In this document: piece after piece, positions 46,694 to 55,462 of the stretch | Numbering within the stretch: the first letter of the stretch is position 1 | Layout of the letters: each line of letters opens with the position of its first letter | Assembly: GCA_013350285.1 (NCBI GenBank) | Contig: JAAXWG010000003.1 | Location: 1-64,000, forward strand | Length of the DNA stretch: 64,000 nucleotides | Direction of reading: 5' to 3' | Source of the DNA: Candidatus Altimarinota bacterium | GTDB taxonomy: Bacteria > Patescibacteriota > Gracilibacteria > BD1-5 > UBA6164 | Position numbers and translations under genes: made by a program | The notes under the pieces: model-generated | Told to the model about the DNA's origin: nothing | Database searches by the model: none | What the model saw: only the letters and a program-made list of their open reading frames with translations

Positions 46694-47137
46694 TTATTTA
46701 AGATTTAAAATATCATGGCTTGCAATTACTTCTATTTCAATAGAGGCTCATTTTGGAAGATTACTTACTTCTACTGTGCTTCTTGCGGGTTTTAATATAA
46801 AATAATCTTTGTATACTTCGTTTACTATATCAAAATCATTTATATTTTTCAAGAAAATAGTTGTTTTTATGACATCTTTTAATCATAAATCTACTTCTTG
46901 GAGAAGAGCTTTTATATTTCTACATACTTGAATTGCTTCTTCTTTTATCCCTCATTTTTCTAATTCGTTAGTATATGGATTTATCCCTATTTGTCAACTA
47001 AAGAAGTAAAGATTTCCTGTTTTTTTATATTTTGAATAAGGTCCTACTGGTTCAGGTGTTCCATGAGAATTATTTATTTCTGAAGATTTGATATTTTTTC
47101 CATTCGTATTTTGACGAGTTGTAAAAATGATAACCAT
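46694..47137 (-). CDS. ridA: RidA-family enamine/imine deaminase
   Basis: 147 residues. [64 protein letters not shown]: complete RidA (YjgF/UK114) pattern with the Arg and Glu of the active site. RidA detoxifies 2-aminoacrylate-type products of PLP dehydratases. IlvA lies two genes upstream, which makes a product-detoxification link plausible. Confidence 0.9.
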
Positions 47138-47159: not shown

Positions 47160-48290
47160 TTATTTTGAAGCTATTATATTTATCCATCTATCTTTATTTT
47201 GTTTTGTATCTCAGTTTATTATTATATCCCTTATTATTAATCATTGTTTTTCAAAAAAATATTTTAATTCATTTTCAGTATAATATGTATAAGTGTTTTT
47301 TATTCAAGGAATAGATATACTTTCTTTTTTTATTTTTTCTGGGTTTCATTCTTCTCTCAGCTTTGTAGAAAAACAGATACTTCCTCAAACTTTTAGAAGA
47401 TAAATCATTTTCTCTAATAATTTTTCTCACATCTCTTTTTCCATATGAACAATTGTCGCAAGAGTCCAAATTCAATCAAAAGATTCTTTTTGAAAATATT
47501 TTTGACTTTCAAATGCATTTCCAATAAAAATACAATCTTTTACTTCTGGATAAGCAATTTCTTTCATTTTTTCACTTAAGTCTATTCCTACTACATCATA
47601 TCCTTTTTCTTTGAAATATTTTATATCTCTCCCATATCCACAACCAATATCAAGAATTTTTCCATAAGGAATATACTGGCAAAAAAGAGAATATAAATTT
47701 TTTACTTCTTCTTTGAGTTCAGTTTGTTTTTTAAATGTAAGAGCATGAAGACTATAAGTATCTTTGATGTTTTTAAAAGTTGTCTCATAGAGTTCTATTT
47801 TTTCAATGATTTTTCAAGCATTTTCATCTCTTGTATTTTCTTGAGTTGTTTTTACTTCTATATCAAATATACTTTCATAAATTGCTTTTCTTTTTGCATA
47901 TATTTCATCAAGATTATGTCCATTATATCAAACAATTCTTCCAACTTGCATATCTTTTTTTCTTCAATTTATTACAGATACATCAGTATTAAGATAAATA
48001 ATAATAGCATTTTTATTTATATTTTCCATAATATCAGTTTGAAGGGCAAGGCTTCCACTTGGAGCAAAAACAGTATTATCAAGAATTATATCTTGATAAT
48101 CAAGTCTTTCCATAGTAATAAATTTCTCATCTCAAAGTTCTTCTAAAAGACTACTCACAGTTTTTTTATGTTTTTCTTCAAGATAATCATCAAAATCAAT
48201 AAAGTTTTTTCATAATTTTTCAGCAATTACTTTTCCGAGAGTTGATTTTCATGCTCATGACATACCAATGAGAACAATATTTTCTTTCAT
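47160..48290 (-). CDS. shikimate-kinase-like domain fused to SAM methyltransferase
   Basis: 376 residues, one frame. Residues 1-~170: P-loop GMSGAGKST (two UGA glycines), FIDFDDYLEE, GDEKFITMERLDYQDII, PSGSLAL and RKKDMQVGRIVG, an AroK-like order. Residues ~185-376: ILDIGCGYGRDIKYF (motif I), VVGIDLSEKMK, and FDGIWTLATIVHME of class I methyltransferases. The substrate and the relation of the two activities are unknown. It is 4 bases after ilvA and 22 bases before ridA in one apparent operon. Confidence 0.83.
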
Positions 48291-48293
48291 AGT

Positions 48294-49535
48294 TTATATA
48301 AGTAAGTCAAAATAAATTTCATTATTTGTTATATCCTCATACTTAAATCAAAGTTCTTTCATTTTATTTTCTATTGTTTCAAAATTTTCTTTTTTTTCTG
48401 TTTCTATTCAGATAAGTACTGGAGCTCTTTCTTTGTTTGATTTTTTCATATATTCAAATCTTGCAATATCATCATCTGTTCCAAGACATCACAAAAATTC
48501 TTTTAAGGCTCATGGTCTTTGTGGAAAACTGATAATAAAATATCTCTTTTTTCATTCAAATTTCATACTTCTCTCTTTTACTTCTGGAAGTCTCTCAAAA
48601 TCAAAATTTCCCCCACTGACAATAACAACAACTTTTTTTCCCTTGATTATTTCTTTCAAATCTTTAAGAGCATCACTTGCAAGAGCTCAAGCAGGTTCTA
48701 TGACAATTCCATCCTCTCTTAAATATTCCAAAATTGTAGAACAAACTCTATTTTCATGACTTGTAAGTACTTCTAAATTATAGGCTTTGCATATTTCATA
48801 TCCTTTATCACCAACTCTTTTTACACTTGCTCCATCTACAAAAATATCTATTTTTTCAAGAATTGTATTTTCTCACAAAGAAAGAGAATTTTTCATAGAA
48901 GCAGCTCCAAATGGTTCAACTCCAATTATTTTTGTATTTTTTCCTAAAGCTTTAGTTATTTCTATGATACCAGAAACAAGTCATCCTCAACCAATAGGGC
49001 AAATAATATAATCAATATTTTCTTTTTGAAATTTTTCATAGATTTCAAGTCAAATAGTTGCTTGTCAATTGATAATTCTTTCATCATCAAAAGGGTGAAC
49101 AAATATTGCATTTCTTTCTTTTTCATATTTTCTTGCTTCTTTAGATGCTTCATCAAAAGTATCTCAAATGAGAAATATTTCTACATACTCTCATCAAAAT
49201 TGTTTTGTTTTGTACACTTTTTGTTCGGGAGTTGTAAGAGGCATAAATATGGCTCATTTTATCTTGAGTTCTTTACAAGTTATAGCAACTCATTGAGCAT
49301 GATTTCAAGCACTTGCGCATACGATTCAAGCTTTTTTTTCTTCTTCTGAAAGAGAGTTTATAAGATTGAAGGCTCCTCTTATTTTATAACTTCTCACAGT
49401 ATTAAGATCTTCTCTTTTGAGATAAATTTCTGCTTCGTATTTTTTACTGAGTCTTTCTGATTTTTCAAGTGGAGTTGTCGGAATAAAGTCTCAAAAATTT
49501 TTCTTTGCTTGTATTATGTCTTCTAATTGTATCAT
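48294..49535 (-). CDS. ilvA: threonine dehydratase, catabolic/biosynthetic type
   Basis: 413 residues. PLP Lys in LKREDLNTVRSYKIRGA, SAGNHAQGVA, PIGGGGLVSG, and a C-terminal ACT-like regulatory segment (RYFIISFPQRPGALKEFL). Makes 2-oxobutanoate from threonine; the enamine intermediate is a RidA substrate. Other Ile-biosynthesis genes are not visible in the window. It precedes the kinase-methyltransferase gene by 4 bases. Confidence 0.92.
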
Positions 49536-49551
49536 AATGAAATAATAAGGG

Positions 49552-51288
49552 TTAAAATTTCTCAAGAATATCTTTTATATTACTATATTTTTCACTAAAA
49601 AATCTATTTCCATTTATCGTATTTTTTATGAGAAAATTATTAAAATAAGGAGAATTTTTTTCCCATAAATTTGGAATTTTTTTTAGTCATTTTTCATAAT
49701 AGATTATTGCTTCTTTTTTGTATCATCTTTTTTCAAGCATATTTCAACAAAAAAAATAATCTTCAGCACTTGTATAAAAAGTGAGATATTCTTTACAATT
49801 TTCTTCAATATTTCTCAAATTCAAAATCTTTTTTTTAAAATAAAGAGGGCTTTTTATTTTTTCTATTTCTTTTCCTTTATTAAAAAGATTTATTTCGTAA
49901 AAGTAATTTGGGTGAGGAAAGAAAAAAATAGCTTTTTTGTACTGATTTTGTAAAAAAAAATACTCAGAGATAAAAAAACGAGAAACAATAAAAATGCTAA
50001 AAATCGAATAAAAAATGATAAAAATTTTTGATACAAAGCTGAATATATATTTTGTTTTTTTCTTTCTACTTTCTTTTATAAAAGTTCTCCATCAAAATAT
50101 TCAAATACTTTTCCAGATTGTTAATTTTTTATATATTTTTTTGAATCATCATTTTTCTAGGGAAATGAAGCTCATAAAAAAAATAAAAAGAAGATAAGAA
50201 ACAATGCTTGGAAAATTGAAAAAATAAAAAAAGAAAAAAAGAAGAAGACTTTCAAAGTAGGGATTTCTCTCAAAATGTTTTATAAGAAATCAAAAAACAA
50301 GGCTTATAAGTAAAAATCCTCAAATTCAAAAGTTATAAAAAAAATCAAGAAAAATATTATGGCTTCTATCTGCTTGATATCAAAAGTTTTCAAATATGTA
50401 GAGAAAAGGAGATTTAAAGTTTCAAAATATAAAATTTAGTGTTTCATTTCATCATCAGAGGAAGAATATTTTAGGAGATGAAAATATTATTTTTATGACA
50501 CTTTCCCAAATAAAAAATCTTGAAAGAAGAGAATGGATTTTTGATGGAAAAAATATGATAGAAAAAATAAAGAGAATAATTAAAAATATCATTCAAAAAC
50601 CAAATACTTTTTTGTTTTTTTCATAAAAGAAAAGAAAAAAAATATAAAATAAAAAAGCAAAAATAGCAATAAAACTTTTTGTAAGAAAAAGGCAAAAAAT
50701 AAGAGGAATAAAAATGAAAGTATAATAATATTTTTTTTCTTTTAAAATCTTATCAAAGAAAAAAGGGGAAAGAAGAAGTATATAAGAAGCAAGATAATGA
50801 GGACTTCAAAAGCTTCCAATAGCTCTTCCAATATAGCTATCATAATAAAATGAAGGGGAAAAGAATTCTTTTATTCCCCATAAAGCAGGGAATATAGAAG
50901 AAATAAGTATAAAGTTGAGAATATTTTTTTTTGATTTTATATCAAGTGAAACAAAAATATTATATAAAATTATAAGATTGAGAAACAAAAAAAATGAGTG
51001 TCATTTTTCAATACTTCAAAAAAATGAATGAAAAGGGGAAAGAGAAAAAATACTTGAAATAAGTAAAATTACAATAAAAAATAGCGAAAAAATATTTATT
51101 TTTTTCTTTTCGTTTTTTATGTTTAGTAAGATGATAAATGAAGAAAAAACAATAAAAAATACAGATTTTGTGAATTCAAAATTTCAATATATATCTATAT
51201 TCAAAATTTTTGAATGGATGAGTGGAAGAATAAAAAAAAGAAAATATATAAAAAATTTTTTTATATTTTTTGCTAGATATATTTGCAT
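49552..51288 (-). CDS. O-antigen ligase-like multi-helix membrane protein
   Basis: 578 residues, very hydrophobic and Phe-rich. About ten helices with a large extracellular loop (AIGSFGSPHYLASYILLLSPFFF), the usual WaaL/Wzy O-antigen ligase or polymerase pattern, and a C-terminal soluble tail of about 130 residues with TPR-like NYFYEINLFNKG. Its start overlaps the Nudix stop by 16 bases. In a monoderm-like cell it would act on surface polysaccharide rather than O-antigen. Confidence 0.78.
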
Positions 51289-53665: not shown

Positions 53666-55462
53666 CTATGAAATATTACCTCATAGCATAATAATTTCTT
53701 TTCGTATATTTTCTTGAGCTTGTTTTTCATACTTTTCTATAAAATAAGGTGTTTTAAAAATTCTTCCTCCAGATTTTCATTCTAAAAATGCTAATCTTCA
53801 TTTTTTATAATCTTCTTCTTTATAATTTGAATATTCATTTCTTACGGCTCTCATATAACCATATTTGATTGAATCTATACCTCCATGGTATATATCCCAA
53901 GGTTGTCATAATATAGATAAATCTATATCTATCATATAAGCTCCTATTAAATCATTTCAATCTAATTTATGACTAGCAGTAAGTGATATAAGATAACTAG
54001 CTCTTTCAATTATTTTTTCTTCTAATCATAATTTTTTTAAAAAATCTTTTGCAAAGTTAGCACTTTGTCTTTCATTTTCTCATGCTTTTGCTTTTGAAGA
54101 ATATATAGCATCATGAAATAATATAGCAAAAAACAAAGCAATAAATTCCTCATGAGAAATAGACTTTTTTATTTCATAAAGAATATTTAGGCAAGCTATA
54201 ATATGAAACCAATTATGATATAATCTCTCAGAAGTATCATACATAGGTTTTAACTTAGCATATATATCAATCCATTTATCTTCAATTCATAATTTCGTAA
54301 ATACTGATTTCATTCTCAATTCACCATATATATCAACAGTACATAGCATTTGATTAAATTTCTCTTCTATTATTAAATCATCATTATTTCAATTATTGTC
54401 AAAATCTACTAAATTTCCATATCATGTAGTCTTAATACTAGCAGAAATAACTTCTTTTTTTCTATCAGTAGAAAACTGATTTTTAACTCTTCTTTCTATT
54501 TGTTCATTATCAAGATTTCTCCCTGATAATCTTTCCTTTTGCACTTCATTATCAACTCATATTAAAACTATATTATTGTTTGCTAAGTCTGTTATTCCAG
54601 CTTCTGCTAATAATGCTCAGTTCAATAGTATAATACCTTTTTTTCAATATATTTCTGTTCTAATTCTAACTTGCATAGGATTAAACATAATTTCATCTAA
54701 AAGTTTTCTTTTTTTAGAATCATTAAATACTATTTCTCCAAGTTTTTTTCTATCTATAAAACCTCATTCTGTTCCTATAGAATCTCAAAATTTTTTAATA
54801 AGCTTCTGCCTTATTTGTTTATATCAATCCTCAATTGCTACTTCTAAAATCCGATGTCATATTTTATCTAAATCTATATTGTGCACTGGAATATTTTCTT
54901 GTTTTCATAGCTCCAAAAATTTTTCTGTTATATATGATTTTCAAGCTCATATAGTTCATGTAAGTCAAACTATATATTGTCAATTCATCCTCGCTTCTAA
55001 AAAATGCTTTACATTTAAACTTACATAATCTTGTATAAATCATTGTTCTTTTAATAATGATTTCGTTACACTACTACTTACATGTGTTTGATTTTGTTCA
55101 GCAAATAAATACATTGAAACTATTCATTCTTTTTCTAAAATATTTTTTAGTGTTTCTTCTCATTGAAAATCACCAATTCATCTAATCCCTCTAATTACTG
55201 TTTTGCTTCATTGTTCAAAAGTAAAATCAGAAAGGAGTCATCAAAAAGGTTTGACATCTATATTCATTCATTCATATACTCTTGCCTTAGTTGCTCATTT
55301 TATCATTTCTACTCTTTCAGGAAAGGAAAACATATATTTTTTATCTGGATTTTGACCTACGGCGACGACAACCTGCTCAAATCTTTCTCAAGATTTAATC
55401 AACATATCTTGATGTCAATTTGTAAATGGATCAAATGATCACGGATAAATTACTTTTACCAT
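53666..55462 (-). CDS. coaDE: CoaD-CoaE-HD fusion protein
   Basis: 598 residues, one open frame. Residues 1-~155: phosphopantetheine adenylyltransferase (YPGSFDPFTNGH, FSFPERVEMI, IRGIRGIGDF, VSSSVTKSLL). Residues ~165-370: dephospho-CoA kinase (GLTGTIGAGKS P-loop with three UGA glycines, VHNIDLDKIGHRI, VFNDSKKRKLLDEI). Residues ~395-598: HD-type metal-dependent hydrolase resembling COG4339 (RLYHNWFHI, LFHDAIY, NERQSANFAKDFL). The first two catalyse the last steps of CoA synthesis; the third role is unknown. Its gene is divergent from the AbrB-type gene. Confidence 0.9.

Follow-up and report, generated by a model that had tools for sequence, protein, structure and literature searches.

In the eukaryotic bifunctional CoA synthase (CoASY), CoaD is followed by CoaE on one chain. 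The same two-enzyme order is present in CoaD-CoaE proteins of the Patescibacteria (families f71 and f155, and genome G019). Extra domains have been described on both kinds of enzyme that matter here: the CoaE of Mycobacterium tuberculosis carries a C-terminal UPF0157 domain that assists its folding (PMC2765170), and in a minimal mycoplasma the HD phosphohydrolase YqeK is fused to NadD, which is sloppy towards nucleotides, and hydrolyses the wrong dinucleotides i.e. NaAD analogues (PMC9426524). The protein analysed here, CoaD-CoaE-HD, shares the CoaD-CoaE order with CoASY, whose chain 2f6r in the PDB is matched by its CoaE part (3.2e-11), but its CoaD belongs to the bacterial type (TIGR01510) and it has an added HD domain, which is missing from the patescibacterial CoaD-CoaE proteins. 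Like the mycobacterial CoaE it has an extra domain C-terminal to CoaE, but of another family. As in NadD-YqeK, an HD domain of the phosphohydrolase type is fused to a cofactor adenylyltransferase, although the partner is CoaD-CoaE rather than NadD and the protein has no match to the YqeK model (TIGR00488). The HD domain is also found, with the same motifs but unfused, in standalone COG4339-like proteins (phrog_19425). The architecture is apparently undescribed, as a variant of known fusions; the literature searched yielded nothing on the triple fusion or on a dephospho-CoA kinase of the CPR, and no mention of COG4339.

The window, i.e. the whole stretch of 64,000 nucleotides that was analysed, comes from a tiny-genome bacterium in which the stop codon TGA is decoded as glycine (NCBI code 25). 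Under this code the gene (Table 1) is an uninterrupted frame running from ATG to TAG, whereas the same frame is broken under table 11. Decoding of TGA as glycine is backed by the alignment with code-11 relatives, because glycine is frequent in these relatives at the 35 TGA columns (49/135 cells, versus 110/1881 overall). Both glycines of the CoaD motif GSFDPFTNGH and all three of the P-loop GTIGAGKS are encoded by TGA. The first-pass annotation had placed CoaD, CoaE and a COG4339-like HD hydrolase on one chain, in a gene that a frame break would have split; the domain order was confirmed within one frame, and no break was found. A frame error or assembly artefact was ruled out, with 12 full-length copies available and TGA the only type of in-frame stop codon, as was a reading of the triple fusion as chance neighbouring ORFs. 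The CoaD-CoaE-HD architecture is therefore real, and it is conserved.

Table 1. Features of the fused gene, in window positions.
Feature	Position	Strand	Details
Complete CoaD-CoaE-HD gene	53666..55462	(-)	598 aa, code 25, 35 TGA as Gly
CoaD (pantetheine-phosphate adenylyltransferase) domain, aa 1-158	54989..55462	(-)	TIGR01510, PDB CoaD matches
CoaD nucleotide-binding motif GSFDPFTNGH, aa 8-17	55412..55441	(-)	S9, D11, G16, H17 invariant in 12 fusions
CoaE (dephospho-CoA kinase) domain, aa 163-375	54338..54976	(-)	TIGR00152, PF01121
CoaE P-loop GTIGAGKS, aa 169-176	54935..54958	(-)	G174, K175, S176 invariant in 12 fusions
COG4339-like HD domain, about aa 383-598	53666..54316, including stop codon	(-)	phrog_19425; AlphaFold2 model
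HD first motif HNWFH, aa 416-420	54203..54217	(-)	H416, H420 invariant in 12 fusions and 9 relatives
HD motif H450-D451	54110..54115	(-)	invariant in 12 fusions and 9 relatives
HD C-terminal acidic pair DID, aa 512-514	53921..53929	(-)	D512, D514 invariant in 12 fusions

The two enzyme parts exceeded their curated cut-offs. The CoaD part (match from aa 4) scored 118.5 bits against TIGR01510, above the cut-off of 103.3, and matched CoaD chains of the PDB down to 2.9e-23; the CoaE part (about aa 163-344) scored 87.3 bits against TIGR00152 (cut-off 65.55) and 85.2 bits against PF01121 (cut-off 27). All key motifs had been reported as present, and in each of the three parts the catalytic residues are indeed invariant across the 12 fusions. 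In CoaD these are S9, D11, G16, H17, K41, R91, R94, S129 and S130, which include the catalytic set (H17, K41, R91/R94 and SS129-130). In CoaE they are G174, K175, S176, D199, R311, R315 and Q329; the P-loop contains GxGKS, with the first glycine variable in 2 fusions.

In the HD part the residues invariant in the 12 fusions are Y415, H416, H420, H450, D451, E464, S467, T495, D512 and D514, among which H420, H450, D451 and D512/D514 make up the metal motif of the HD superfamily (H...HD...D). The phrog_19425 'phosphohydrolase' profile matches at 1.4e-25 over positions 9-200 of 207 i.e. over the whole domain, in keeping with the earlier label of COG4339-like; the likeness to COG4339 itself is one that we presume. 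The solved chains closest in sequence profile are those of bacterial HD proteins (3b57 at 1.7e-7 and 3dto at 2.8e-6). Three other assignments were rejected on sequence. The HD part is too divergent to reach the cut-off of 22 bits for Pfam HD (PF01966; 11.5 bits for the window protein, 11.5-13.7 over the range tested), PDEase_I of Pfam gave no match at E <= 10 in any of 10 HD members, and identity with YqeK was ruled out as TIGR00488 is absent from the window protein's profile matches at E <= 1. Pairwise dN/dS values were 0.06-0.21 for CoaD, 0.10-0.30 for CoaE and 0.10-0.25 for HD, so that the HD part is maintained by selection just as the enzymes are.

An AlphaFold2 model of the HD domain (53669-54316), built from the window sequence and 9 relatives, had a mean pLDDT of 90.1; a model of the full-length protein from its single sequence (pLDDT 36.8) was unusable. 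Among Foldseek's top 1000 chains the solved folds nearest to the HD model were class I cyclic-nucleotide phosphodiesterases (Z about 17, rmsd about 3 A, about 203/216 residues). Compared with the PDEase_I catalytic-domain fold the values were Z 17.2, 3.5 A and 204 residues; sharing a helical fold does not by itself indicate function. The domain is predicted to have the class I phosphodiesterase fold over its whole length, but identity is about 15-18% and the PDEase_I profile is not matched. Class I phosphodiesterases have the motif order YHN-x-x-H, then HD. We take His416/His420 (HNxxH), H450-D451 and D512/D514 to be putative counterparts of the proton donor and metal ligands of the phosphodiesterase superfamily.

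The search for the same domain order covered relatives first and then 353 genomes of the class. Full-length triple fusions were found in 12 of the 353, in three families: f1 (n=1, the window's own), f2 (n=5, with proteins 30-33% identical to that of the window) and f13 (n=6). Separate genes in close relatives, which would have spoken against the fusion, were not encountered. In these three families CoaE exceeds its family cut-off solely as part of a fusion; one f1 genome (G019) has CoaD-CoaE without HD, and most of the remaining members lack any CoaE match, with one weak partial match below the cut-off in G006. Stand-alone CoaE genes are present in other, more distant families of the class. 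Elsewhere in the phylum, 4 f71 genomes and G609 also have CoaD-CoaE without this HD type. A simple reading would be that HD joined an older two-enzyme fusion; together with G019, these proteins also indicate that HD is dispensable for CoA synthesis.

Strong hits to the HD type (43 bits or more) numbered 14 in the class, of which 13 were fused to CoaD, comprising the 12 triple fusions and a reversed HD-CoaD protein (genome G350), and one was standalone. Approximately unbiased tests rejected neither a single clade of the 12 triple-fusion HDs (p-AU 0.22) nor a single origin of their CoaDE parts (p-AU 0.37). However, a clade uniting the triple HDs with the HD of the reversed protein, which groups apart from them, was rejected (p-AU 0.0099), so that to judge from the trees the HD type probably became linked to CoaD on two or more occasions. 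The binning of G350 is uncertain, since its contig spans just 10 kb at low coverage. Beyond the class, most occurrences of the HD type are standalone proteins, in cyanobacteria, a planctomycete, plasmids and phages, which suggests that its chemistry may be general; a genome-wide scan with a single HD protein gave 4 loci only.

Several further occurrences were recorded. Among plasmids, 110 Pseudomonas records carry the HD type, e.g. megaplasmid NZ_CP124659.1, and it is named 'hypothetical protein' in those listed. Phages of more than 630 kb (LR745206, LR756502 and LR756501) encode both the HD type and CoaD, which is weak evidence of a connection as such phages carry many genes. In LR756501 (735 kb) one frame (L091, 2911-3882) encodes the HD type followed by an apparent CoaD remnant that lacks the nucleotide-binding motif; an intact CoaD is matched at another place in the record. 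Most f1 and f2 genomes also encode a second, separate HD protein (G000:C2:33510-34007).

We then considered where the substrate of the fused enzymes might come from. CoaB (PF04127) and CoaX (PF03309) had no match in any of the 17 genomes examined, and no bacterial PanK was above the cut-off in these 17, type II pantothenate kinase lying outside the search; control genomes were positive in each case. AcpS was found in 2 of the 17 only. Because these early enzymes were undetected, CoA is probably completed from imported phosphopantetheine, a reading that rests on gene absence in draft genomes. In one f71 genome (G544) the CoaD-CoaE gene comes after pyruvate formate-lyase-like, activase-like and CoA-ligase genes, and these neighbours are consistent with a role in CoA supply.

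In most relatives the fusion is found with NAD-salvage genes or adjoins an NrtR-like regulator gene. Some neighbours were identified by their likeness to genes searched against the libraries, and several fell below NCBIfam cut-offs with strong E-values. Three genomes (G048, G059 and G074) have the fusion amid PncA, PncB, NadE and NadD genes, and two of the three have PRPP synthetase and NadK there as well. Near the fusion of G058 are PRPP synthetase, an ADP-ribosylglycohydrolase-like gene, NadE and NadK. An NrtR-like gene directly adjoins the fusion in G140, G105, G104 and G108; in G104, PncA, PncB and NadE lie on the other side. Near the CoaD-CoaE gene of G019 are NadK and a PHP/NMN-adenylyltransferase-like gene. 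A nadE gene lies within 20 kb of the fused gene in 8 of the 12 class genomes that have both, for which a simple chance estimate is 7e-10, with the 20 kb limit set post hoc and the genomes being related rather than independent events. The window's own gene has an Elp3-like tRNA-modifying enzyme and a MazE-like gene as neighbours and no NAD-salvage genes, and its genome (assembly 98% complete) has no NadK or NadE match with the models used; neither observation supports an NAD link in this organism.

Other domain combinations were seen in passing. A PHP-type phosphoesterase-like domain is fused to an NMN-adenylyltransferase-like domain in a gene (L115, 7991-9514) adjoining NAD kinase and CoaD-CoaE, and an adenine phosphoribosyltransferase near a fusion (L107, 10739-11722) has, by eye, an N-terminal MazG-like stretch. 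In the window, shikimate-kinase-like and class I methyltransferase domains share one 376-aa frame (47160-48290, minus strand). A Rid-family protein lies near a gene that by eye is threonine-dehydratase-like (46694-47137 and 48294-49565, both on the minus strand), two proteins that form a known damage-control pairing.

The reading that we put first, at close to even confidence, is a salvage CoA synthase whose HD phosphohydrolase edits or turns over cofactor dinucleotides in the manner of YqeK. CoaD would adenylylate imported 4'-phosphopantetheine, CoaE would phosphorylate the dephospho-CoA from that step, and the C-terminal HD domain, as an active metal-dependent phosphohydrolase, would cut one of the nucleotides of cofactor synthesis at a phosphate ester or anhydride bond. 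By analogy with NadD-YqeK it would most likely clear wrong or surplus dinucleotides of CoA (perhaps NAD) synthesis i.e. mis-adenylylated or excess dephospho-CoA or CoA, and perhaps NAD-type analogues. The parts of this reading differ in strength: the HD domain is probably catalytic, somewhat less surely it has a role in cofactor metabolism, and editing or turnover of the dinucleotide itself is a tentative proposal by analogy. The position of the fusion in relatives, usually beside NAD-salvage genes, also makes clean-up or turnover of a cofactor the probable task of HD. In a broader version, which we consider rather unlikely, hydrolysis directed at CoA would be the function of the whole COG4339-like HD family, and the fusion would be a CoA synthase that corrects itself by destroying the dinucleotides that it has mis-made or made in surplus; HD would then be a bacterial domain modelled with the shape of the phosphodiesterases of animal cyclic-nucleotide signalling.

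The alternatives concern what HD acts on and whether it acts at all. The domain could reverse CoA chemistry for salvage or balance, splitting the pyrophosphate of CoA or dephospho-CoA into phosphopantetheine and 3',5'-ADP or AMP, so that one protein both makes and breaks CoA. With no upstream pathway detected the moiety must be scavenged, and PHP-type-looking proteins lie in or adjoin the cluster in G019, G048, G058 and G074, that of G019 matching a 3',5'-nucleoside bisphosphate phosphatase model (9.3e-14). However, this match is far below the cut-off, the PHP protein of G074 has no Pfam match at 1e-6, the window's own gene has no PHP-type neighbour and CoA itself is not known to enter cells; we regard the proposal as unlikely. 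Also improbable is a general hydrolase of nucleotide pools or signal nucleotides, e.g. (d)NTP, Ap4A or a cyclic nucleotide, that leaves CoA metabolites alone. The mostly standalone occurrence of the HD type elsewhere and the predicted fold, closest to cyclic-nucleotide phosphodiesterases, point that way, but fusion to CoaD in 13 of the 14 class cases, and of a separate HD lineage likewise, argues otherwise.

The first-pass annotation had left the choice between a CoA-linked nucleotide hydrolase and a regulator. As a sensor, HD would bind a nucleotide or metal and tune CoaD or CoaE while catalysing little or nothing itself; cross-talk is plausible given that the gene in relatives is often beside an NrtR-like regulator or amid NAD-salvage genes, but in a domain that only binds, part of the catalytic set should have been lost, whereas all of it is invariant, including the extra His416 and Glu464, and we judge this quite improbable. 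Invariant catalytic residues, purifying selection, the second HD-CoaD fusion of separate HD origin and the cofactor-salvage context thus lead us to favour the CoA-linked hydrolase over the regulator. Finally, a domain that chiefly aids CoaE folding has a precedent in the C-terminal UPF0157 domain of the mycobacterial CoaE (PMC2765170), but is very unlikely here given the conserved HD catalytic residues and the existence of CoaD-CoaE proteins without HD.

The fusion gives the COG4339-like HD proteins of cyanobacteria, plasmids and phages a concrete candidate pathway. Should editing or turnover of CoA be what HD does, the domain would be the second HD hydrolase to proofread a cofactor adenylyltransferase, after NadD-YqeK, and a second case, if true, would suggest a general principle. 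The fusion and its cluster, in which the salvage routes to both CoA and NAD lie together, outline how very small genomes may complete the two cofactors from scavenged parts.
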